43,739 nucleotides of DNA from Erysipelotrichaceae bacterium RD49 (GTDB lineage: Bacteria; Bacillota_I; Bacilli_A; Erysipelotrichales; Erysipelotrichaceae). Made by a program: the position numbers and the translations under genes. Positions 233 to 12,865 of the stretch are shown here, piece after piece (position 1 is the stretch's first letter; each line of letters starts with the position of its first letter). The stretch covers positions 1 to 43,739 of the forward strand of contig JADGIS010000003.1 in the NCBI GenBank assembly GCA_015233825.1, in the 5' to 3' direction. The notes under the pieces are model-generated. The model had not been told where the DNA came from, did no database searches, and saw only the letters and a program-made list of their open reading frames with translations.

Positions 233-1198
233 GTGACCTCACCCTATGATATCCGCCATGATATCGGCTGTTATCCTTTGTTTATCATGGTCTTAGATGG
301 CTGTCTGCACCTTGACTACTGTAAAGAGCACTATATGGTCAAAGAACGGGATATTCTTCTGCTCGACAGCCAGCATGCTCATCATTACTGGTGTGAAGAT
401 TCCTGCTCGTTTATTTTCTTTCACTTTGGAGGCAAAGATTGCGATGTGATGGTCCGCCATCTTCAACAAAGCAATGGCTCCCCTCTTTTTCAAACCAAGC
501 AGGCCAACGAAATCTATCAGATTTTTCTTCAAACCTATCACAGCTTGATGTATCACAATGTAAAAGCGGAAAGAGAATTGTCCATGATGGTTTACAACAT
601 TCTTTGTCTGCTTGAAAGTGAAGAACATGTCTATCCGCAGGATTTTGTACGCTACTCGCCGCCCATTGCCCAAGCCGTCTCCTTTATCCGCCAGCATGTC
701 CATAAAAACCTTTCGCTCAAACAGATCGCCGATCATGTTCATCTGTCGCCCTATTACTTCACAAGACTTTTCAAAAAAGAAACGGGCTATACACCCGTCA
801 ACTATCTGAACAATCTGAAAATCAGCCTGGCCCAGATCATGCTGCGCACCTCAAACTCGAGCGTATCGCAGATTGCGGACTCCCTGGGATACAGCAGCAA
901 CACCTGCTTCATCAACGCCTTCCGCCTGCGCTGCCATACGACGCCAGCGGCCTACCGAAAAAACCTTTTCCAGGAAGAACGCCAAGGAAACACCCAGACC
1001 CACAATCCGAAAACCATCCAGGAAGATCCCAAACTGACTGCTCCTGCTCCTCAGTTTGAACAAGCTTCTCTTGGAAAAAAATCCGCCTTAAATCCTGCGA
1101 ACTCATCTGTCTCCAGCCAGACAGATTCAAGCAAGGAAAAAACAAAGAACAATGCCAAGCATTCAACCCCGGCTAAAAACCATTCAACTGGCGGTTAA
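233..1198 (+). CDS. AraC-family transcriptional regulator
   Basis: Probable DNA-binding regulator with an N-terminal cupin-like sensor domain (about residues 1-100) and a C-terminal pair of AraC helix-turn-helix motifs (about 146-245). In the HTH part, LSLKQIADHVHLSPYYFTRL is the first helix-turn-helix and SVSQIADSLGYSSNTCFINA the second. The last 70 residues are a low-complexity Ser/Thr/Asn/Lys-rich tail that is unusual for the family. The first usable start codon is GTG at 233, but homology-like sequence continues in frame upstream to a stop at 143-145 with no ATG, GTG or TTG. The gene either uses a rare start such as ATT or has lost its 5' end. The ligand is unknown. It could control brnQ, which begins 165 bases downstream on the same strand, but that is inference. 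Confidence 0.85.
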   Translation: MTSPYDIRHDIGCYPLFIMVLDGCLHLDYCKEHYMVKERDILLLDSQHAHHYWCEDSCSFIFFHFGGKDCDVMVRHLQQSNGSPLFQTKQANEIYQIFLQTYHSLMYHNVKAERELSMMVYNILCLLESEEHVYPQDFVRYSPPIAQAVSFIRQHVHKNLSLKQIADHVHLSPYYFTRLFKKETGYTPVNYLNNLKISLAQIMLRTSNSSVSQIADSLGYSSNTCFINAFRLRCHTTPAAYRKNLFQEERQGNTQTHNPKTIQEDPKLTAPAPQFEQASLGKKSALNPANSSVSSQTDSSKEKTKNNAKHSTPAKNHSTGG

Positions 1199-1350
1199 GA
1201 ATCGCCAAGCAGGTGTCGACAGATCTTTCTCAAACGAAAATTGGACGCTTGGTTTTTCCCGGATTTGTGCCGTTTGGGCCAATCGAGCGCAGGAGGATGC
1301 CTGGAGCCGTTTTTCTACCCATAACCTGCTGATTCTTGTCTGATTCATGT

Positions 1351-1356
1351 TACGAT
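1351..1356 (+). promoter_or_regulatory. candidate -10 element, leaderless brnQ start
   Basis: TACGAT ends six bases before the ATG at 1363, where transcription would begin on or beside the start codon. There is no Shine-Dalgarno sequence between them. The -35 region is weak (CTGATT at 1329-1334, 16-base spacer). Three other genes in the window show the same arrangement. Confidence 0.3.
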
Positions 1357-1362
1357 CTTGTC

Positions 1363-2445
1363 ATGAATCGAAAAATTATCTTGTTAGGAATTACCTTGTT
1401 TTCCATGTTTTTTGGCGCGGGCAACCTGATTTTTGCTCCTTTTCTTGGCGCCCAGGCCGGAAGCAGCATGTGGCTGGCTCTTAGCGGAATGCTTTTAACC
1501 AGCGTGGTCATGCCTGTCTGTTCTATCTGCATTATTGCCCCCTATGGCAATGCGTCCAATCTGATCAGCCGCATTTATAAGCCGCTGGGACCCATCTTCA
1601 TGACGCTGGTCTACTTGTTGATCGGTCCTTGCATTGCCATTCCCCGTACAGCAAGCACCGCATTGGAAATGTGGACCTGGCTGCTGCCTGGAAAGTGGAT
1701 GCCGATCTTAGCGGTAATGGCTTTCTTTGGCGCGGCTTACTTAATGGCCGTTCATCCTGGCAAACTCAAAGATATTCTGGGCAAAGTGATGGGACCCATC
1801 TTACTGGTTCTCATTTTGTTTGTCTCCATCCCGCTGCTCTTCAGGCCGGCAAACATCGTTGCACCGAGTTCCCTGTATGCCGCTTCCCCGTTCTTTACCG
1901 GCTTGAATGAAGGCTATCAGACGATGGATATCTTGGCGGCTTTCTGTTTTGGAATCATCATCACGATGAATATCAAGAAAATGCAGCTTGCCAATCCCCA
2001 AAAAGCACTGGCTCAATCGGCTATTGTCGCAGGAATCTTGCTGGCCAGCGTCTATATCCTGTTAGCCTTCTGTTCTGCCCGTAACAGTGCTGATTTACAG
2101 GGGCTGTCGAATGGGGCGCAGATTTTATCCACCGCAGCTATGCAGACCTGGGGCAGTTTTGGCCAGATCCTTTGCGGCTTGATCTTCTTGATCGCCTGCC
2201 TCAACGTCTGCTCGGGTTTGCTTGCCTGCTGCAGTGAGTATTTCGAAGAAACGTTCAGCCGCTTCTCCTACAGGACCTGGCTGATGATCTTTACCATCGC
2301 CGGTACTTTAACTGCCTGCAGCGGCTTGGATTCCATTCTTTCCTGGTCAGGCAAGCTGCTCTCCTTGATCTGCCCGATTGCCATCTTGATTCTTGCCATT
2401 GGCTTGTTCAACACGATTAAAGATCGAAAAGCACACCAGGCTTAA
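1363..2445 (+). CDS. brnQ: branched-chain amino acid transport system carrier BrnQ
   Basis: Cation-coupled symporter of the LIVCS/BrnQ family that imports leucine, isoleucine and valine across the cytoplasmic membrane. The family N-terminus is clear, with FSMFFGAGNLIFAPFLGAQAG in the first membrane helix. About 11-12 hydrophobic segments cover most of the 360 residues, a little shorter than the usual 430. The ATG at 1363 is preferred over a TTG at 1336 because the family sequence begins there. It has no Shine-Dalgarno sequence and may be leaderless. The gene shares a bidirectional terminator with the convergent phosphatase gene. It fits the isoleucine/valine synthesis genes further along the window. 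Confidence 0.9.
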   Translation: MNRKIILLGITLFSMFFGAGNLIFAPFLGAQAGSSMWLALSGMLLTSVVMPVCSICIIAPYGNASNLISRIYKPLGPIFMTLVYLLIGPCIAIPRTASTALEMWTWLLPGKWMPILAVMAFFGAAYLMAVHPGKLKDILGKVMGPILLVLILFVSIPLLFRPANIVAPSSLYAASPFFTGLNEGYQTMDILAAFCFGIIITMNIKKMQLANPQKALAQSAIVAGILLASVYILLAFCSARNSADLQGLSNGAQILSTAAMQTWGSFGQILCGLIFLIACLNVCSGLLACCSEYFEETFSRFSYRTWLMIFTIAGTLTACSGLDSILSWSGKLLSLICPIAILILAIGLFNTIKDRKAHQA

Positions 2446-2506
2446 GCAGGTTCGCTGATCAAAGTGTTCTGGGCTGGCCGTTTATGAACCATTGAAGAAA
2501 ACGTAG

Positions 2507-2543
2507 AAAACGGCAAATCCGTCTCGAACAGATTTGCCGTTTT
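2507..2543. terminator. bidirectional intrinsic terminator
   Basis: Perfect 13-bp stem (AAAACGGCAAATC / GATTTGCCGTTTT) around an 11-base loop, with T-rich flanks on both strands. It lies between brnQ and the convergent phosphatase gene and can serve both. Confidence 0.85.
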
Positions 2544-2564
2544 CTTATACGGTTGGAGTGAGGA

Positions 2565-3389
2565 TCAGCCTTGAAATTCGTCAATAGGTACGCCAACAAA
2601 GCCATCTTGCGTAAGTGTGTATAACTCTGTAAAGCCAGCTGTTTTTGCCCGCTTCAGGCATTCGTCAATGCCCAGGTCCAGGTTTTCGCGGTTATGGCAA
2701 TCCGTGTTGATCAGCAGCTTGCCCTGGTTTTGGAAGATCAAATCCAGGATTTGATCAGAAGGATAGGCCTGGCTGCGATAACCGCGCGAAATCGCGCCGG
2801 TATTCATCTCAAAAATCTTGCCGGCGTGTGCCAAAGCTTCAATTGCTTCCTTAGCCATAGCCAGGATCTTCGGATCATCAAAACGAAAATACTTTTGGTC
2901 ATCATTGTATTTGGCAATCAGGTCGATATGGCCGACGATCTGCATGCGCTCATTTTCGGCCTGCGCTTTGATTGCCTGGTAATACGCTTTGCAAAGGGCA
3001 TAAATATCGTTGTTCCAGCCCTGGGCAAGCATTTGTTCAAAGCATTCTTGCGAATAATCGATGGGCCAGGCCTGGCCATTTTTTGTTAAATAATGAACAC
3101 TGCCAATGACATAGTCATAGTCTTCAGGGTTGACGGGATTCATGCTGTCTTCTTCAATGCCAAGAAAGATCGCCATCCCTTTAGGCGGATTGTTCTTCCA
3201 GCGCTTGACATCCTGCCGGTATTGGTTCGTTTTTTCCGGCGTCATGCTGCACTCATCCAGCGGATTGTAAGCGTGCCCCGAAAAACCAAGAACGGTAAAT
3301 CCCTTGTCAGCGGCTGTTTGAACCATTTCGTCGATGGAATCTTGGCCATCATCATAGTAAGAATGCGTATGCAGATTGGACTTCGTCAT
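2565..3389 (-). CDS. histidinol-phosphatase (PHP family, HisJ/HisK type)
   Basis: PHP-domain metal-dependent phosphoesterase of the HisJ/HisK family, which removes phosphate from histidinol phosphate in histidine synthesis. Metal-binding motifs run in order: NLHTHSYYDDG at residues 5-15, FSGHAY, GIEED, IGSVHYL, GHIDLI and NTDCHNREN near residue 230. The 274-residue length is normal. The start is supported by GGAGG just upstream of ATG 3389. No other his genes are present, so the true substrate could be another phosphate ester. It appears to be a single-gene unit ending at the shared terminator downstream. Confidence 0.85.
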   Translation of the reverse strand: MTKSNLHTHSYYDDGQDSIDEMVQTAADKGFTVLGFSGHAYNPLDECSMTPEKTNQYRQDVKRWKNNPPKGMAIFLGIEEDSMNPVNPEDYDYVIGSVHYLTKNGQAWPIDYSQECFEQMLAQGWNNDIYALCKAYYQAIKAQAENERMQIVGHIDLIAKYNDDQKYFRFDDPKILAMAKEAIEALAHAGKIFEMNTGAISRGYRSQAYPSDQILDLIFQNQGKLLINTDCHNRENLDLGIDECLKRAKTAGFTELYTLTQDGFVGVPIDEFQG

Positions 3390-3472: not shown

Positions 3473-3522
3473 ATGTTAGGCAAGAATACCCCATCCAGAA
3501 CTGCTAAGCAGTTTGGGTGGGG
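3473..3522 (-). repeat. IS200/IS605-like right-end hairpin of the IscB element
   Basis: The 3' end of the iscB-like gene folds into a hairpin with arms CCCCACCCAAACTGC and GCAGTTCTGGATGGGG (one bulge), followed by TATTCTTGCCTAACAT. The iscB stop codon lies in the loop. This is the layout of the subterminal hairpin ends used by IS200/IS605-family elements. A close copy without the gene occurs at 31193-31243. Confidence 0.65.
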
Positions 3523-4709
3523 AGGAATTGCCGAATTCTTGTTTCTTTTAAGTATCCATTCGCTCTTTCGATCAGAACTAATTTCCTCATAGATGCAGAA
3601 TTGTGAATCTTCTGTCCTGATAAAGTTTTCAAAACAAAATATCCGCTTTTTCTGCGTCCAGTAATCAAGCATTCCTGTTCTTCGAATTTGACCTTGTCAA
3701 AGAGGCAGAAGCCGCCAACTATATGTGGAGCCTGGTTGTTCTTGCGTTTATGTCCTTTGATGAAGTTGAATTGATGAATCTGGCGGTTATGTCTTCTGAT
3801 CTTCTTGAGGTACAGGCATGTTTCTAATGGCTTGGCATTGAGATTGCCTGCAATGCAATACGCATCGTTGTAATGCTCTTTCGCCAGGTTCAATTCAATT
3901 CTTTTGTTCTTGGTCAGGTAGCCATAGGTATTGATGACTTCAAGATCAGGATTGGCTTGTTTTAATCGTTCCAGCAGCGTCCAGCGCATAATGCCCATGA
4001 AGGCTGCATCTCGATACGGCATAGCTCGCTTAGGCAGCTCAAAGTCTTCTGGACCTTTGATCTTTCCTAACTTGATCTTTTTGTGGTATTCGTTATGGCC
4101 TGTCTCACAAAGCGTAATCAGATTGGAAGGCGAATTGCCGCCAGTCTTCCGGCTTTCAATGTGATGAACATTTAAGACTGGATCTTTTTTCTTGCCATGG
4201 CAGTGCTGGTATTCGTGGTTGTCTCGAAATAAAACATACTCACGAACATTCCAGAATCCTTTTTGATCACCATTTTGATACCCAGTTCCGGAAATCTCGG
4301 GATTTTTTAATTTCTGCGTATCAAAAGAAGCAGTTTCCACAACGATCCTGGTTACAGGAAGAATCTTTTGGACTTCTTGAATGCAATGAAGATGAGTGCC
4401 AATCTTGTATTCAACAGAGGGATCAAGCCATCCTGTATGTTTGATACGGACTCGGTTGTTAAACCTTGGGGCTCTATATCTTCTTTTGCGGTTTCTTCTT
4501 GTTCGCCGTGCTTCTCTTCTAGTAGAGATCAGCTCAGTAATATCTGTCCTGTTCTGGACATCCCATGCCAGCAGTTCTTTATCTTTGGTTGAAGCGCTTA
4601 GACCAATCTGTTTAGAACCAGCATCCAATCCAAGAGTGACGGGCTGGGTATATCCAGTTGAATCGTATAAAAACTTGATGGTAAGGAACCGCAGGAAAAT
4701 AAGGTCCAA
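3504..4709 (-). CDS. iscB: IscB-like RNA-guided nuclease homologue (RuvC/HNH), N-terminally truncated
   Basis: Homologue of IscB, the transposon-encoded ancestor of Cas9. From the TTG start: RuvC-I LGLDAGSK (D29); an Arg-rich bridge helix at 63-88; RuvC-II IVVETASF (E125); an HNH domain at about 160-210 with NVHHIESRKTGG (H182/H183) and N196; RuvC-III HYNDAYCIA (H279, D282). The RuvC triad is intact. Two features look decayed. The zinc-knuckle positions normally Cys are Y167 and G204, leaving only C170 and C201. The N-terminal PLMP domain of about 50 residues is missing, since only 23 residues precede RuvC-I. The frame stays open for 19 more codons to a TAA at 4767-4769 without ATG, GTG or TTG. 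The nuclease may be inactive or reshaped. Confidence 0.8.
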   Translation of the reverse strand: MDLIFLRFLTIKFLYDSTGYTQPVTLGLDAGSKQIGLSASTKDKELLAWDVQNRTDITELISTRREARRTRRNRKRRYRAPRFNNRVRIKHTGWLDPSVEYKIGTHLHCIQEVQKILPVTRIVVETASFDTQKLKNPEISGTGYQNGDQKGFWNVREYVLFRDNHEYQHCHGKKKDPVLNVHHIESRKTGGNSPSNLITLCETGHNEYHKKIKLGKIKGPEDFELPKRAMPYRDAAFMGIMRWTLLERLKQANPDLEVINTYGYLTKNKRIELNLAKEHYNDAYCIAGNLNAKPLETCLYLKKIRRHNRQIHQFNFIKGHKRKNNQAPHIVGGFCLFDKVKFEEQECLITGRRKSGYFVLKTLSGQKIHNSASMRKLVLIERANGYLKETRIRQFLPTQTA

Positions 4710-5736: not shown

Positions 5737-6537
5737 TTATTTGGTCCGTTTGAGCCGGCCTCCGCATCGGCCGCACCGGTAACGTTCGGGATGTTCGATC
5801 AGTTTGGATTTGCGCTGGCGGTTAATCGTCATTTTGCAGTCAATGCATTGAACCTGGTATTGGTATTTGGTCTGACGCTGAGCACGGACATCTAAAATCT
5901 TTTTATCCGCCGCACTTAAAGCCGGATAGAGATCAACAGAAAAAGTGGATGTAACCCGGCATCCAAGTTCATCATTGACAAAAGAAGCGTAATATTTAAA
6001 CAGCTTGGAGTGGTTCATGCAGCCATCAATCGTATGGATCAGTTCATGGGCAAACGTATCCCGTAAAATCCGCTCTTCTTCAAGCTTGAGCAAGTCGGGA
6101 TTGAAGTAAATATAAAAGTGCTTCTGCATTGTTCGGGTATTGACATCCCAAAGCGATTCGCAATAGCACTTGCCTAGAGTCACCCGCAGCGAGCGCCTGA
6201 CACTGACATAGTCTGGTTTATGAATTGGAAGACCGAGCCGGACCATATCGGCGTAGATCTGGTTGAAAATCTTCATCCACCGCTCCAGAGAGGTTTGCCT
6301 TTCCTCTTTGAAATAGAGGACCTGCCCCTGGGGGTCGGGTTTATGGCGCAAAGCTGCTTTGCGGTTGTTTTCTTCCAGCTTGCTTTCAACGACTTTGGAA
6401 ATCTGTTCATTGATGAGATCTTCCAAATCCAGCTTTCCTAGTTGAGTTTTGGTTTGTTCTTCCATGCTCTGATACAAGAATCGACATGCGTCTTCGATAC
6501 GTTGCGGGGATTTCCCCGACAAGAAAGATCGGCTCAT
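5737..6537 (-). CDS. SprT-like zinc metalloprotease-family protein
   Basis: Predicted cytoplasmic zinc-binding protein of the SprT/Spartan-like family. The metal site is HELIHTIDGCMNHSKLF, that is HExxH with a third His eight residues on, as in SprT. A C-terminal zinc ribbon follows (CIDC ... CGRCGG near residues 234-258). Spartan-type members degrade DNA-crosslinked proteins, but the bacterial role is not settled. ATG 6537 is chosen because AAGGAG lies 8 bases upstream. An in-frame ATG at 6663 would add 42 residues without family character. A promoter is proposed at 6803-6831, leaving a leader of about 260 bases. It is cotranscribed with the membrane protein gene downstream. Confidence 0.8.
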   Translation of the reverse strand: MSRSFLSGKSPQRIEDACRFLYQSMEEQTKTQLGKLDLEDLINEQISKVVESKLEENNRKAALRHKPDPQGQVLYFKEERQTSLERWMKIFNQIYADMVRLGLPIHKPDYVSVRRSLRVTLGKCYCESLWDVNTRTMQKHFYIYFNPDLLKLEEERILRDTFAHELIHTIDGCMNHSKLFKYYASFVNDELGCRVTSTFSVDLYPALSAADKKILDVRAQRQTKYQYQVQCIDCKMTINRQRKSKLIEHPERYRCGRCGGRLKRTK

Positions 6538-6871
6538 ACTCTTCACTCCTTTCCAGAAGGCAGCAGTCTGTCTGCATCTATGATCACTGATCTTCAAGTG
6601 GAAACGGTCCAGGGTCAGTCGAACATCGCAAAGCAGATTCCTCAGCCAGCATTTTGGTTTCACAGAAAAGATTTCCTTTTTGGTTCATTCAAGCGACTCA
6701 ATCTGGGCCCTTTATTTTTGTCTATGTGATCTATACATTTTTCAAGCTGAAACCGCTCAATTGTTGATGCAATCAAGATTTATCTTGCGGTTTCCTACCT
6801 TTTCTATAAATCACTTTGAATTTCTAATCAAGCCAAAACCCGTAATTTTATGAAACTTTAACTCGAGTTAA
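6538..6871. other. intergenic stretch between the SprT-like gene and feoB
   Basis: No gene is supported here. The stretch holds a possible promoter (6803-6831) and a 16-bp perfect palindrome TTTAACTCGAGTTAAA at 6857-6872 next to the feoB terminator. The remainder would be a 5' leader of about 260 bases for the SprT-like gene in which I see no known riboswitch. Confidence 0.45.
6803..6831 (-). promoter_or_regulatory. candidate promoter for the SprT-like operon
   Basis: Minus-strand TTGATT (6826-6831) and TATAGA (6803-6808) are separated by 17 bases, a fair sigma-A match. It is the best match upstream of the gene but lies about 265 bases from the start codon. Confidence 0.35.
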
Positions 6872-6947: not shown

Positions 6948-9089
6948 TCAGGCAGCATTCATTCTAACGCTCGATGGCGCTGTTTTTTTGACTGGCTTAA
7001 AAATCATATAAATATACCAGACCAGTACAGCCAAGGCCACGACCGTTCCGACGCCAAATCCACCGCCGGTAGCCCACGTACCGAGCTGATAAACGATCAA
7101 AGCCACCGTATAGGCGTAAAACATCTGCCAGCCAATTGCAAACCAGGTCCATTTGCGGCTGTTCATTTCTTTGGCCAGAGTGGAAATTGCAGCCAGGCAG
7201 GGAGCATCTAACATGTTGAAAACCAAAAAGGAGAAAGCTGCAATTGCCGATGGGAAAATCTGCATGACTGCCAGCCACAGCTGTGGATCTTCGCCCGTGT
7301 CATCCAAAACATTGACCAGAACCCCCATTGTGGCCACAATCTGTTCCTTGGCAACAAAACCAGCCATTGAAGCCGCAGTTGCCTGCCAGTTGCCCCAGCC
7401 CAGCGGTGCAAAAAGCGGGGCAATCCAGCCGCCGATGACAGCCATCAAAGACTGGCTGACTTCGTCGACCATGCCAAACCCATCGGCTGTAAAGCCATAG
7501 GCCAATAAGAACCAAGTCACCACGCAGCAAGCAAACAAAATCGTTCCTGCTTTCTTGATAAAGTGCCAGCATCTCTGCCAGGTTTGACGCAGGACGTTAT
7601 TGAGTCTTGGCCAATGGTAAGCCGGCAGTTCCATGATAAAAGGTGCTGGCTCGCCCGCAAACATTTTGGTATGTTTCAAGATCAAAGCCGATAAGATAAT
7701 CGCAAAAATTCCAAACAAGTAAGTCGCCCAGGCAATCCACCAAGCATCGACTCCACCAAGAATAGCACCGGCAATCAAGGCGATGACAGGCAGCTTGGCG
7801 CCGCAAGGCATCGAAGTTGTGACGATCATCGTCATTTTGCGGTCGCGTTCTTCTTCAATCGTACGTGCAGCCATAATGCCAGGAACTCCGCAGCCCGTCG
7901 AAACCATAAAAGAAATAAATGACTTGCCAGAAAGGCCAAAGCGGCGGAAAATCCGGTCCATAATAAAGGCCACGCGGCTCATATAGCCGCAGTCTTCCAA
8001 AAAGGACAAGCACAAGAAGACAACAGCCATCTGCGGAACAAAGCCAAGCGGGGCTCCCAGGCCGCCGATAATCCCATCGACCACCAAGGAAACAACCCAG
8101 TCGGAAGCATGAACGCTTTCTAAGAAAGCTGTCATATTGGCCTGGCACCATTCAGGAACAAAGACATCGTTGACCCAGTCCGTACACATCGTTCCAATCG
8201 TTGAAATGGATAAATAGTAAACCAGGCCCATAACCAGAACAAAGATGGGCAGTGCCAGAAAACGGTTGGTGACGATCTTATCGATCCGATCGGAAATGGT
8301 TAAGGTATGAGAGCGGTTTTTCTCGTACACGCCCGCCAGCGTTTTGGCGATCCAGTTGTAACGCTGGTCCGTGATAATGCTTTCCGCATCGTCATCATAT
8401 TCTGTTTCCAATCCATCCCGCAATCCGTCGATTGTTTTCAGGCTCTCTGGCGAAAGCTTGAGTTCTGGAATAATCTTTTCATCCTTTTCAAAGACCTTAA
8501 TCGCGTACCAGCGGCTTTCTTCTGATTTTGGAAGCTGCTCTTCAATGGCATGGAGCACATTTTCCACAGGTCTTGAAAATTCGCTGACATTCGGCTTTTT
8601 TCTGCCTACCGCAGCGGCCACCGCTGCTTTGGAAACTTCATCAATTCCCTGCCCGCCGGCGGCCGACATTTCAATGACAGGACAGCCCAGGCGCTTGCTT
8701 AAGGCCGCGGCATCAATCTGGTCGTTGTTTTTTTGGACGACATCCATCATATTCAAAGCAACAACTACCGGCAAATTCAGCTCGAGCAGCTGGCTGGTCA
8801 GATATAAGTTTCTTTCCAGCGTTGAAGCATCGACCATGTTTAAAATCGCATTTGGTTTTTCGTGAATCAGGTAATTCCGGGTTACAACTTCTTCAGGGGT
8901 GTACGGAGAAAGCGAGTAAATTCCCGGCAGGTCCTGAATGATGATTTCATTCTGGCCTTTCAGCCGCCCCTCTTTTTTCTCTACCGTTACGCCCGGCCAG
9001 TTTCCAACGTATTGTTTAGATCCGGTCAGGGCGTTGAACAGAGTGGTCTTCCCGCTGTTCGGGTTACCAGCCAGCGCAATCTTGATCAT
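6948..9089 (-). CDS. feoB: ferrous iron transport protein B
   Basis: Inner-membrane Fe(II) uptake protein of 713 residues, normal for the family. The N-terminal GTPase domain shows G1 GNPNSGKT (8-15), the G2/G3 region GNWPGVTVEKK and DLPGIYSL, and G4 NMMD. A helical spacer follows, then the membrane core with two Gate regions, including GCGVPGIMAARTIEEERDRK and the FVAKEQIVATMGVL segment. The C-terminus has two further hydrophobic segments and a short basic tail. ATG 9089 has AAGGAG upstream. It is the last gene of feoA-feoA-feoB and begins 12 bases after the second FeoA stop. Metal-dependent repression through the operator at 9687-9725 is likely. Confidence 0.96.
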   Translation of the reverse strand: MIKIALAGNPNSGKTTLFNALTGSKQYVGNWPGVTVEKKEGRLKGQNEIIIQDLPGIYSLSPYTPEEVVTRNYLIHEKPNAILNMVDASTLERNLYLTSQLLELNLPVVVALNMMDVVQKNNDQIDAAALSKRLGCPVIEMSAAGGQGIDEVSKAAVAAAVGRKKPNVSEFSRPVENVLHAIEEQLPKSEESRWYAIKVFEKDEKIIPELKLSPESLKTIDGLRDGLETEYDDDAESIITDQRYNWIAKTLAGVYEKNRSHTLTISDRIDKIVTNRFLALPIFVLVMGLVYYLSISTIGTMCTDWVNDVFVPEWCQANMTAFLESVHASDWVVSLVVDGIIGGLGAPLGFVPQMAVVFLCLSFLEDCGYMSRVAFIMDRIFRRFGLSGKSFISFMVSTGCGVPGIMAARTIEEERDRKMTMIVTTSMPCGAKLPVIALIAGAILGGVDAWWIAWATYLFGIFAIILSALILKHTKMFAGEPAPFIMELPAYHWPRLNNVLRQTWQRCWHFIKKAGTILFACCVVTWFLLAYGFTADGFGMVDEVSQSLMAVIGGWIAPLFAPLGWGNWQATAASMAGFVAKEQIVATMGVLVNVLDDTGEDPQLWLAVMQIFPSAIAAFSFLVFNMLDAPCLAAISTLAKEMNSRKWTWFAIGWQMFYAYTVALIVYQLGTWATGGGFGVGTVVALAVLVWYIYMIFKPVKKTAPSSVRMNAA

Positions 9090-9101
9090 AACTTCTCCTT
9101 C

Positions 9102-9326
9102 TTAAATCTTCTCAACTTGGATTGCGTCACATTCCTGCTTGCGCAAGGTGAGCTCATACCCGCGCAGATTGATCTCCATTGGATCTCCTAGTGGAGCAAG
9201 TTTACGGACGGTCAGCTCGCAGCCTTTGGTGAGGCCCATATCCATGATCCGGCGCTTTAAAGCACCCGTGGCCGCAATTTTGGTGACTCTGGCTTGATCG
9301 CCAGGGCGCAGTTCTTTTAAAGTCAT
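9102..9326 (-). CDS. feoA: FeoA family protein (second copy)
   Basis: Small SH3-like cytoplasmic partner of FeoB, 74 residues. The family pattern LKELRPGDQARVTKI ... RRIMDMGLTKGCELTV ... PLGDPMEINLRGYELTLRK is complete. A GTG at 9329 directly precedes ATG 9326, and AAGGAAG lies upstream at a distance that suits either. It lies immediately upstream of feoB. Paired feoA genes are common in Bacillota and the two proteins may form a heteromeric partner for FeoB. Confidence 0.93.
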   Translation of the reverse strand: MTLKELRPGDQARVTKIAATGALKRRIMDMGLTKGCELTVRKLAPLGDPMEINLRGYELTLRKQECDAIQVEKI

Positions 9327-9401
9327 CACTTGTCTTCCTTTCCTGGATTCTCAGATTGAAGTCCTCGGCTTCCATCCCATCCATCCTAAAATTTCTCGTC
9401 T

Positions 9402-9426
9402 ATGACCAGATCCAGAATCTGGTCAT
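9402..9426 (-). other. hairpin between the two feoA genes
   Basis: A perfect 10-bp stem (ATGACCAGAT / ATCTGGTCAT) with a 5-base loop in the 110-base gap between the feoA genes. No T run follows, so it is not a normal terminator. It could mark an mRNA processing or stability element. The gap itself encodes nothing recognisable. Confidence 0.45.
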
Positions 9427-9439
9427 GGATCCTGCCAGA

Positions 9440-9655
9440 CTAGATCATGATTCGCTTGGCAAGATCTTTATTGAGTGCAATGCGAACGCCTTTGACTTCC
9501 ACAATGAGGCTTCCAGCAATGGATTGCTTGACTGAGATGGTCTCATTTTCAACCAGGCCAAGATTTCTTAAATGGCTTCGCACTTCATCTTTTCCAGTGA
9601 TGCGCTGGATCGTATAACTTTCACTTTCTTTAGCAAAACTTAAAGGCATAGGCAT
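9440..9655 (-). CDS. feoA: FeoA family protein (first copy)
   Basis: SH3-like FeoA-domain protein of 71 residues and the first gene of the feo operon. Visible family features are the hydrophobic-turn pattern IQRITGKDEVRSHLRNLGL and the closing KGVRIALNKDLAKRIMI. It is more diverged from classic FeoA than the second copy. ATG 9655 has a strong GGGGAGG upstream. The likely promoter region just upstream contains two iron-box-like repeats, so expression should rise when iron is scarce. Confidence 0.88.
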   Translation of the reverse strand: MPMPLSFAKESESYTIQRITGKDEVRSHLRNLGLVENETISVKQSIAGSLIVEVKGVRIALNKDLAKRIMI

Positions 9656-9686
9656 TCTATCCTCCCCGTCATTCCTGACTGTTATC

Positions 9687-9725
9687 TTAGACTAACCTCT
9701 TTTGAGTTAGGTTAGTCTAACTTAG
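9687..9725 (-). promoter_or_regulatory. DtxR/IdeR-like iron-box operator of the feo operon
   Basis: The plus strand reads TTAGGTTAGTCTAACTTAG at 9707-9725, matching 16 of 19 positions of the classic DtxR/IdeR box TTAGGTTAGCCTAACCTAA. A second, inverted half-similar site covers 9687-9698, so TTAGACTAACCT and AGGTTAGTCTAA form perfect 12-base arms around 10 bases. It lies 30-70 bases upstream of the first feoA and would let a metal-bound DtxR-family repressor block the operon. Confidence 0.7.
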
Positions 9726-9746
9726 GTATTTCAAAGTTTACGCCCG

Positions 9747-9857
9747 CTAACTCAACCCGTCAACACCGAAATTAGATTTTGCTAACTTACATTCGATTTC
9801 TTTCTTACTCATCCCATATTTTCTTATTATTTCTTTCAAGAAAAGGGGTTTCATCAC
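9747..9857 (-). CDS. possible small ORF upstream of the feo operon
   Basis: Open frame of 36 codons starting at GTG 9857 (or ATG 9854) after a perfect GGAGG at 9865-9869, encoding a basic peptide ending SKKEIECKLAKSNFGVDGLS. No family is recognised. It points the same way as feo and ends about 20 bases before the iron box. The good ribosome binding site is the only support. Confidence 0.3.
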   Translation of the reverse strand: MMKPLFLKEIIRKYGMSKKEIECKLAKSNFGVDGLS

Positions 9858-10249
9858 CACATTGCCTCCAGAATATGGCATTCTTTCATTTCTCGCTTCA
9901 GCACTTATGCTGGGTTTGGCCTTTGCTTGCAGACTCTTTCGATTTAACAATATGGACCCGGCAGTTGGGAGAGATTTTTACACGCCCTATTTTGCATTTA
10001 AGATTTTATGAAGAACAAGCTGGCTTTTTATCCCTCCGCTTCTTGTCCAGTTTGTTTTCCGCTCAGGCATTCAGCTTTTGAAAAGCCGCCTGGATGGCAA
10101 AAATAGAAATAACCCTGATCTGGCTGGTGTGTCCTTTTTCCTGGATTGATCACACGCCAAAAAAAGCCAGCGGACAGCTGACTTCAAATTCCAGTATCGT
10201 TTGCGGCAGGGATCTCATCTGGATCCCTTGTAAATGGAGATGGAATCCC
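9858..10249. other. intergenic stretch upstream of the deaminase-like gene
   Basis: No gene is supported. There are small inverted repeats such as GGGATC/GATCCC around 10209-10227 and AAATGGAG/CTCCATTT at 10232-10260, just before the proposed promoter. A 100-codon plus-strand frame here has no ribosome binding site and no protein-like pattern. Confidence 0.4.
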
Positions 10250-10279
10250 TTGCTCCATTTCCGTCACCACATTTAAAAT
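10250..10279 (+). promoter_or_regulatory. candidate promoter of the deaminase-like gene
   Basis: TTGCTC (10250-10255) and TAAAAT (10274-10279) are separated by 18 bases, about 65 bases upstream of the start codon. Confidence 0.35.
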
Positions 10280-10345
10280 GCTTAAAACCCCAGATTCAGC
10301 CTGGCTTGAATCTGTCCTCCTCTTTTGATTGAAAGGCGGTGTCTT

Positions 10346-12865
10346 ATGTCGAATTTTGGACGCTTTTATCTCGACCAGGAAAAAGATATCGTGGTCGACT
10401 TGAATATGGAAAACGATGTTCTCCACTATACGCTGCGCACTCCCAACCACCACACTGGCAATCTGATTACCAACCTGGCAAAGCTTTGTGCCCTTCCTTT
10501 ATCGTTTGACAACCAGGGACTCAAGCAGATTGCAGGAACTGTTCCAGCCTACTTGGATAGTGACAATCGCAAAGTCTATATCTTCCGGCTTGGGGGAACG
10601 AAGTGTGCCAACATCTATCCCGATGGCACAATTAAACGCAAAGCAGCCATTCCCGCAATTTCAAAAACGCTCATGTCCCAAACCAAGCACTACCAGCTCT
10701 CTTTAGAGCAAACGATCATCAAATCCTACATCTTGGAAGATCTTAAGTTTCGAACCGATCTGCATACCCACATGAATGCCAATCTCTATCCGGATACCTT
10801 GATTGCTTTAGGGATTGTTCATCAGGTCCGCTATCCGCTTTACTATGTCAAAAAGCTGGGACTGCGGCTGAATGAAAAACAAATTGAGCAGCTGGCCAAA
10901 GACCGCCAGGCAGCCAAAGAAAAGTTTAAAGACAGTCCCTTAACCGGGAAGTATCTCACCCGGAAAATTGATGACAGCACCTTCATCAACTTTGCCGATC
11001 TGATTTTGCACAATCTTGAAAATGCAGACTATAACCTGCCTAAAATCCGCGCTTCGCTGTCGATCATGAAGGATGGCCAGGCCGTCTTTACCAACTTGGA
11101 GAAAGTCTATTTGTACCGCTACATTTTTGCCAAAGGAATCCCCAGCAAGGATCCAATCGAGCTGCAGGATTCGAAGATCACCCGAATCCCGGACCGTGAA
11201 ATCCGCTCAGCTGTCTTCCAAATGCTGGAAGACGACCGAAATCCGAGCTACCAAGACTTTTCGCTTTTCCAGGACAAACTACTCTGGATTGCCCGCATGT
11301 ATCAATCCAAAGGAATTGCGCTGGCTGAAATCTCCGACACCGGACTGGTCAAAAAAGATGCTGCTCCAGACATGCTGGCGCAGATCCACCAGGCCATGCC
11401 CGCTATCTATGAGGAAACCAAGGTAAGGATCTTCTTTTTAGCCGCTTTACGCCGGATTCCACTGACCATTGTCAAAGACCAGGTCCAAAGCGCCGATTAC
11501 CAGGATAATCTGGAGACCTTGCAGGCGGTTGCCATGGATCCCTATGTCGCCGGCTCCGATATTTTAGGTGAAGAAATCAACGACATCCGTGACTTGAAGC
11601 CCGTCATTGCCCAATTGGTCAAAATTGCCAAAGACGAGCCGTCCTTTGTGATCCGAATCCATGCGGGTGAAAACGATGGGATTCGCGATAATGTTCTCAA
11701 CTCCGTACTACTGGTGGAAGAATGCCTTGCACCAGGCCAGCCGATGCCAGAGGTCCGCATTGGACACGGCTTGTATACGGCCAACCTGGCCAGTGCCCAA
11801 GGTAAAAAGCTGCTTCAAAAACTCAAGGAAGATCGCTTGACGCTGGAGTTTCAAATCACATCCAATGTGCGCTTGAACAACCTCTCCAGCCTGGCAAGCC
11901 ATCCCCTCAAATCGTATTTAAAAGCCGGTGTGCGCTGCGTACAGGGAACCGACGGCGGGGCGATCTACGGGTCCAACTCCATTGATGAACAGCTTTCCCT
12001 GGAGCGGCTGCTTAAGCTGGACCAGCACGATTTTGAAGCGATGCGCAAAGTTGAAGACCAGATCATCGAACAAGCCAGTCAAGCCTTCAAAACCAAGATG
12101 GAAAATTACCAGCAGCAGCTTCAAGGACAAAGCTGCCAAGACTTCTACAAAGAACGAATTGCCAAAGCCGATACCGGTGCGGTTTCGCTTTATTCAAAAT
12201 CCAAAACGCCATCGCTGCAGGCATTTGCCAATGAGATTGCCCCGCTGCCCCAAGATAAACTGCCCGTGATCCTCATGGGCGGATCCTTTAACGCGGATAA
12301 GCATGCGACACGGATGCGTCCAGAGGGCAAAGAGCTGATCACCAGGCTGCTTCAAACTGCCAATCCGGACTCCGTTTATTTTGTGATCGGGCACCGTTTG
12401 AAAGGCTATGAATCCTTTATAGTGGCTGAAAACCAAAAACTGGAAAAACCCTTTACGATCTTTGCCTTTGTTCCCGGTGCCATCTCTTTGGCAGACCAGG
12501 CACGCCTCAAAAGCAGCCGCCTGCCTATCCGGGTTGCCTTAGAACCAGAGGAGCTGGGCATCTATAAAAGCGTCTCCTATGAAATTTTCAAGCGCCGGCC
12601 TTCTATTTTGGTCGCCTTGGATGGCAACAGTGCCGCTTTGAATATGATTCAGGATGCCCGAAACGCGAAATACAAGTCCCTGATCCTGCTCTTTCAAAAA
12701 TGCATGGCATTTAAGGCCAAGGCCGGCACGCTTTCAGGCTACACGCAGCTGTTTGACCAGGCAGATTCTGCTTTGAAACAGATCGAACAGTTTTTAGCCA
12801 CCAACTCTCCCCACCAGCCCCCGCTGCCTGAAAAGCCTGATGATCCAAGCGGTCCACTTGATTAA
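10346..12865 (+). CDS. large adenosine/AMP deaminase-superfamily protein with extra C-terminal domain
   Basis: Protein of 839 residues, far longer than ordinary adenosine deaminase (about 340). Residues 1-130 are an unrecognised N-terminal region. The metallo-deaminase fold follows: zinc ligands HTH (H140, H142), a long insertion, HAGE (about 439-442, catalytic Glu), RIGHG (H474), SNVRLNNL and HPLKSYLKAG, then GTDGGAIYGSN (D536). Deaminases normally have TDDP here, so the second Asp, which contacts the purine, is Gly537. Residues 639-790 form a separate Rossmann-like region (VILMGGSF, VYFVIGHRLKGYE, SILVALDGNSAALNMIQDAR) resembling nucleotide-binding folds. ATG 10346 has AAAGGCGG upstream. 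It stands alone between feo and a two-component pair. Its substrate is unknown and may not be adenosine. RdrB of the RADAR defence system is another large deaminase, but no RdrA ATPase is nearby. Confidence 0.75.
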   Translation: MSNFGRFYLDQEKDIVVDLNMENDVLHYTLRTPNHHTGNLITNLAKLCALPLSFDNQGLKQIAGTVPAYLDSDNRKVYIFRLGGTKCANIYPDGTIKRKAAIPAISKTLMSQTKHYQLSLEQTIIKSYILEDLKFRTDLHTHMNANLYPDTLIALGIVHQVRYPLYYVKKLGLRLNEKQIEQLAKDRQAAKEKFKDSPLTGKYLTRKIDDSTFINFADLILHNLENADYNLPKIRASLSIMKDGQAVFTNLEKVYLYRYIFAKGIPSKDPIELQDSKITRIPDREIRSAVFQMLEDDRNPSYQDFSLFQDKLLWIARMYQSKGIALAEISDTGLVKKDAAPDMLAQIHQAMPAIYEETKVRIFFLAALRRIPLTIVKDQVQSADYQDNLETLQAVAMDPYVAGSDILGEEINDIRDLKPVIAQLVKIAKDEPSFVIRIHAGENDGIRDNVLNSVLLVEECLAPGQPMPEVRIGHGLYTANLASAQGKKLLQKLKEDRLTLEFQITSNVRLNNLSSLASHPLKSYLKAGVRCVQGTDGGAIYGSNSIDEQLSLERLLKLDQHDFEAMRKVEDQIIEQASQAFKTKMENYQQQLQGQSCQDFYKERIAKADTGAVSLYSKSKTPSLQAFANEIAPLPQDKLPVILMGGSFNADKHATRMRPEGKELITRLLQTANPDSVYFVIGHRLKGYESFIVAENQKLEKPFTIFAFVPGAISLADQARLKSSRLPIRVALEPEELGIYKSVSYEIFKRRPSILVALDGNSAALNMIQDARNAKYKSLILLFQKCMAFKAKAGTLSGYTQLFDQADSALKQIEQFLATNSPHQPPLPEKPDDPSGPLD

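Follow-up and report, generated by a model that had tools for sequence, protein, structure and literature searches.

Deaminases of the adenosine deaminase (ADA) superfamily act as defence effectors in Cad1 and RdrB, and a SLOG domain serves as the defence sensor in ThsA (PMC12948488, PMC11645235, PMC9994260). SLOG proteins bind nucleotides and small ligands, and a GxD/E motif has been described for them (PMC6459960). TaqCad1 deaminates ATP without deaminating adenosine, and the two Asp residues that hold adenosine in canonical ADA are replaced in its active site (G264 and N549; PMC12669630). In mouse ADA, alteration of D296 severely impairs catalysis (as cited in PMC12669630).

The gene described here, termed ADA-SLOG, lies in a 43,739-nucleotide stretch of DNA from Erysipelotrichaceae bacterium RD49, the whole of which is referred to as the window. 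Its product consists of three domains: a small beta domain at the N-terminus, a deaminase barrel that depends on zinc and, at the C-terminus, a SLOG domain. No description of such an ADA-SLOG fusion was found in the literature searched; the SLOG survey of Burroughs et al. (2015) lay outside this search, and a prior mention is possible.

Comparison With Known Systems

ADA-SLOG shares the barrel, the zinc ligands and the catalytic Glu and His with canonical ADAs and N6-methyl-AMP deaminases (PF00962) and, with the latter, also an Asn at the position of Asp19. It differs from canonical ADA in the Gly that takes the place of D296, in its large insertions, in the additional N-terminal and SLOG domains and in its length (839 vs. 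approximately 350 aa). Like Cad1, the CARF-ADA protein of type III CRISPR systems, it unites an ADA barrel and a Rossmann-like ligand domain in a single chain, and both substrate Asp residues are replaced as in TaqCad1. However, the ligand domain of ADA-SLOG is a C-terminal SLOG, whereas Cad1 carries an N-terminal CARF domain, and the ADA-SLOG barrel matches the CARF_ADA model no better than an ordinary ADA does. The only PADLOC match of the protein, which is to this model (3e-7), was rejected as a sign of Cad1 identity, since ordinary ADAs from the window's bacterial family reach 1e-40 to 1e-46 with it and the match is therefore generic. No CRISPR genes were found among the neighbours of ADA-SLOG relatives.

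RdrB of the RADAR system is likewise a large ADA-superfamily protein with insertions, but an RdrB identity was also discarded: ADA-SLOG gives no match to the RdrB profile (PADLOC), contains a SLOG domain and is not accompanied by RdrA. The gene had been described previously as standing alone without an RdrA partner, and indeed no adjacent gene resembles RdrA. With ThsA of the Thoeris system, other SLOG sensors and the MHR1/2 region of TRPM, ADA-SLOG has in common that a SLOG domain is fused to another functional part. Unlike in ThsA, the partner of the SLOG domain is a deaminase, there is no SIR2 domain, and no ThsB is linked.

Gene and Domain Architecture

The open reading frame at 10346-12865 of the forward strand translates into 839 aa (Table 1). 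An alternative in-frame TTG exists at 10325; the ATG at 10346 is favoured as the start, because the relatives align there (MxYFGxFYLDQEKD). An inverted repeat, AGATTCAGCCTGGCTTGAATCT, is situated at 10292-10313, approximately 32 bp 5' of the start codon, and by eye it is not kept in the relatives. Canonical ADAs in sister genomes measure approximately 330-350 aa, which bears out the earlier remark that the protein exceeds twice the usual length. The full-length structure model is of moderate quality (pLDDT 78, pTM 0.58), and its loops around the active site are weak; consequently, the pocket and the domain contacts cannot be read from it.

Table 1. Coordinates of the ADA-SLOG gene and associated features in the window.
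Feature	Position	Strand	Evidence
Additional segment relative to genus-mates, containing feoB, two feoA-like ORFs and ADA-SLOG	6948..12865		Comparison with genus-mates
Shine-Dalgarno-like GAAAGGCGG ahead of the ATG	10331..10339	+	Read from sequence
ADA-SLOG coding sequence from ATG to TAA, 839 aa	10346..12865	+	Translation, alignment to relatives, residue conservation
Beta-rich N-terminal domain (residues 1-131) containing the FYLDQEKD motif	10346..10738	+	Model, Pfam, alignment
Deaminase barrel with insertions, residues 132-560	10739..12025	+	PF00962 E=4e-15; Foldseek to ADA structures, prob 1.00
HxH zinc ligands H140 and H142, followed two residues later by N144 in place of mouse ADA Asp19	10763..10771	+	Conservation
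HAGE: zinc ligand H439, catalytic E442	11660..11671	+	59/59
GHG: catalytic H474	11762..11770	+	59/59
TDGG: zinc ligand D536; G537 in place of purine-contacting Asp (mouse D296)	11948..11959	+	59/59
C-terminal SLOG domain, residues 628-805 (predicted fold)	12227..12760	+	Model, Foldseek; PF18171 match in divergent relative
G687-Y688-E689, SLOG GxD/E ligand-binding signature	12404..12412	+	Conservation; motif in PMC6459960

Conservation was assessed over 59 sequences, comprising 58 distinct relatives of the main clade and one divergent relative, L117. In the structure model, residues 1-131 are mostly beta with one helix. L9, D10, E12 and D14 are kept in all 58 main members, and searches with Pfam profiles returned no family for this region. 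Neither Pfam nor PADLOC profiles detected a CARF domain in it, and the region is beta-rich in the model. The start of L117 (VYLNKDKS) resembles the N-terminal domain weakly (hhalign E=0.005, probability 7%) and is at most a candidate homologue of it.

The Deaminase Active Site

The barrel is recognized by the Pfam A_deaminase profile (PF00962; E=4e-15, 56.1 bits vs. a cut-off of 27) and matches adenosine deaminases of the PDB both by sequence and by structure (Foldseek prob 1.00). The motifs listed in the preliminary description (H140-T-H142, H439-A-G-E442, G473-H474-G475 and T535-D536-G537-G538) were found as stated, and H140, H142, H439, E442, H474 and D536 are invariant in 59/59 sequences. 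The change of TDDP to TDGG, with loss of the purine-contacting Asp, had also been pointed out and holds for the entire set, as the second Asp of this motif (mouse D296) is replaced by Gly (G537) in 59/59. A second substitution had been missed: the position of Asp19 is occupied by Asn (N144) in 57 of the 58 main members and by Ala in L117. The N6-methyl-AMP deaminases 8qch and 6iv5 (PDB) also exhibit Asn at this position. Both adenosine-holding Asp residues of canonical ADA are lost, and the metal and catalytic centre is intact. The invariance of the zinc and catalytic residues, together with a dN/dS of approximately 0.08, indicates an intact enzyme with changed specificity, and the two Asp replacements may point to a phosphorylated substrate.

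As alteration of D296 cripples mouse ADA, the Gly found here could instead mean a different reaction. An enzyme of the amidohydrolase fold that is regulated by the SLOG domain and catalyzes something other than purine deamination would be consistent with the loss of both canonical substrate Asp residues in every member, and also with the scores against the adenosine deaminase equivalogs of NCBIfam (TIGR01430/PRK09358), whose cut-offs are far from reached (42.1 vs. 216.55 bits and similar). This scenario is nevertheless regarded as quite improbable, because the catalytic Glu and His and all deaminase metal ligands are invariant, and because these Asp residues are also replaced in TaqCad1, which deaminates ATP.

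The C-Terminal SLOG Domain

In the window protein itself, the C-terminal region gave zero Pfam matches. A separate Rossmann-like region had been claimed at residues 639-790, and the structure prediction and Foldseek search proposed for it agree: a model of residues 628-839 (pLDDT 88, pTM 0.87) contains a separate alpha/beta fold at approximately 638-785, and the search places the region in the SLOG superfamily, with matches to Moco carrier protein, TRPM MHR1/2, LOG and DprA (prob 1.00, E 4e-5) and to ShosA (prob 1.00). The full-length model yields the same families minus ShosA. Within the GxD/E signature, E689 is kept in 58/58 and G687 in 49/58 main members, and the divergent L117 has GVE. In L117, the corresponding C-terminal region can be aligned with the main family (hhalign E=4e-6, probability 87%), and it resembles PF18171 (SLOG in TRPM, prokaryote; SLOG/LSDAT) with E=7.6e-4 and 19.2 bits vs. 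a cut-off of 25.4; such a profile score helps detection but does not define the superfamily. By its predicted fold and its GxE signature, the domain is assigned to the SLOG superfamily; it is a nucleotide-type domain and not a known non-nucleotide domain, which had been considered as the opposite outcome. Across 118 genomes of the order the fusion is constant, and no free-standing relative of the SLOG domain was detected.

The fold is shared with LOG phosphoribohydrolases, and LOG structures are among the Foldseek matches of the C-terminal domain. In a bifunctional salvage enzyme, the barrel would deaminate a purine nucleotide and the LOG-like domain would cleave the base from the ribose phosphate, an arrangement for which the constant fusion and the position of one member (L060) next to nucleoside hydrolase genes could be cited. 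However, the catalytic LOG motif GGxGTxxE (PGGxGTxxE) is present in 0/59 members, whereas the true LOG encoded elsewhere in the genome has PGGIGTLEE, and hhalign shows no meaningful LOG relationship. LOG catalysis by the C-terminal domain was consequently rejected, and a salvage function is considered very unlikely. As the LOG motif is absent and the SLOG signature is kept, the domain is read as a probable binding or sensor module, and a sensing role is plausible.

Distribution and Evolution

Eleven relatives with 52-66% identity were recovered from a scan of approximately 85,000 genomes; they belong to Erysipelotrichaceae of the rumen and gut, to Christensenella and to other Clostridia. In profile searches, the gene was found in 76/273 genomes of the window's bacterial family and in 0/4 other members of the genus, as well as in 6/392 genomes of a phylum sample and 10/341 of a Clostridia sample. 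Identity across classes amounts to approximately 49-57%. The divergent L117 retains the whole architecture at 26% identity over the shared region. This ADA-SLOG (positions 949-3297) stems from a 1.2-Mb Clostridia genome and has TDGK for TDGG; its SLOG domain is more recognizable, and the homologue would be a good seed for a search of the wider family.

All three domains are under strong purifying selection, with a median dN/dS of 0.08 in close pairs (0.05 for the N-terminal, 0.07 for the ADA and 0.07 for the SLOG domain). The protein tree interleaves Clostridia and Erysipelotrichia, and its supported branches force at least three changes, which shows that transfer between the classes has occurred; the gene has spread horizontally among gut Bacillota. 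No relative was found in phage, plasmid and viral collections including IMG/VR, and a BFVD search gave nothing below 1e-3. The divergent homologue yielded two weak, partial matches to plasmids.

A canonical ADA exists alongside ADA-SLOG in approximately 11 genomes, which argues that ADA-SLOG is not simply a housekeeping ADA and speaks against the view, raised in the preliminary description, that its homologues might all be housekeeping purine deaminases. The window's own genome contains no PF00962 protein besides ADA-SLOG.

Genomic Context

An exact TATAAT occurs within 60 bp upstream of the gene in 20/58 members, compared to 3.5 expected and a maximum of 8 in 300 shuffles, indicating that the gene is frequently transcribed as a unit of its own. 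No riboswitch was found upstream. The nearest neighbours vary by genus and are metabolic or housekeeping genes. Seventy-five neighbours were checked and proved to be housekeeping or unannotated, and no neighbour is conserved across genera. Thus, the survey of relatives suggested beforehand returned varied housekeeping genes and no constant partner. PADLOC identified no defence cluster near the gene in relatives; its few matches among the neighbours derive from families with generic members, e.g., DEAD helicases and radical-SAM proteins. ADA-SLOG is a one-gene, self-contained unit with its own promoter in many members and without a partner gene.

In the genus-mates G393, G394 and G396, the two-component genes that border this locus and the homologues of either the SprT-like gene or its neighbour are 0.35-2.2 kb apart. 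In the window, a 5.9-kb segment sits between the two-component genes and the SprT-like side (Table 1), and acquisition in this genome, rather than loss in the genus-mates, is the simpler reading. Within the segment, feoB and the two small feoA-like ORFs, identified by eye, occupy 6948-9700 of the reverse strand. A second FeoB copy, 38% identical, is encoded elsewhere in the genome, and no close intact copy of the window's feoB is present in the genus-mates. The SprT-like protein (5737-6663, reverse strand) carries a zinc ribbon and, at its N-terminus, approximately 140 additional aa. An IscB-type RNA-guided endonuclease (NF040563, E=1.7e-86) is encoded at 3504-4709 of the reverse strand, with a GC content of 42% vs. 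48% for the window.

The context bears on a possible function as an anti-phage effector, i.e., a counterpart of Cad1 (CARF-ADA) or ThsA (SIR2-SLOG) in a single chain. In this scenario, infection would lead to a nucleotide signal that binds the SLOG domain, the barrel would deaminate ATP or dATP, and growth would stop. Such a role would fit the sensing function of SLOG in ThsA and the effector function of ADA in Cad1 and RdrB (PMC12948488, PMC11645235, PMC9994260), the equivalent Asp replacements in TaqCad1, the patchy occurrence in the family and genus, and the between-class transfer. On the other hand, no signal generator or defence gene was found among the neighbours, no relative was found on phages, plasmids or viral contigs, and the low dN/dS and the identity maintained across classes are unlike those of fast-evolving immune genes. 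Genomes with the gene do show co-occurrence of ThsB_TIR matches (40/76 vs. 25/197 genomes without the gene, p=5e-11, uncorrected for kinship). TIR proteins as the signal source were rejected, as this association is treated as confounded: the matches are mostly long TIR proteins that cluster by genus, and a ThsB_TIR search of the window's own genome at 1e-5 gave nothing. Long TIR-domain proteins are common in the window's bacterial family; examples in L132 (3029-6295), L133 (2914-4974) and L134 (1794-3344) comprise 500-1100 aa, are apparently membrane-anchored and contain repeat or other regions. As the conserved sequence and the lack of defence neighbours argue against an anti-phage effector, this function is considered unlikely.

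Proposed Function

The explanation favoured here, tentatively and at somewhat less than even confidence, is that ADA-SLOG, under the gating of its SLOG domain, deaminates a phosphorylated purine and, as a self-contained enzyme, senses and edits the nucleotide pool. The barrel would act on a phosphorylated purine, such as an AMP- or ATP-type or a modified nucleotide, and not on free adenosine. A nucleotide or ADP-ribose-like ligand on the SLOG domain would gate the barrel, as may be inferred by analogy with Cad1 and ThsA, so that sensing and editing of the nucleotide pool would take place in one chain. A role in nucleotide-pool or stress control is more likely than dedicated phage defence. What is retained from the preliminary description is the fusion of a deaminase of altered specificity with a nucleotide-type domain, which is here assigned to SLOG. 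The proposed kinship to RADAR and other defence systems is not, given the missing RdrB match, the housekeeping neighbours, the purifying selection and the searches of phages, plasmids and IMG/VR contigs, in which no relative was found. A more far-reaching and rather unlikely possibility is that these proteins form a third class of deaminase-based signalling effectors beside RdrB and Cad1, in which a single-gene SLOG-ADA would sense a nucleotide or ADP-ribose-type signal and deaminate ATP/dATP or another nucleotide pool, without a linked generator and with transfer among gut bacteria.

As Cad1 and RdrB demonstrate, activation of an ADA-superfamily deaminase can alter the ATP pool. With sensor and enzyme in one chain, both the substrate and the activating ligand of ADA-SLOG are directly testable with a single purified protein. 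The union of an ADA barrel and a SLOG sensor in one conserved, solitary gene of gut bacteria would add a self-contained enzyme to these switchable deaminases.
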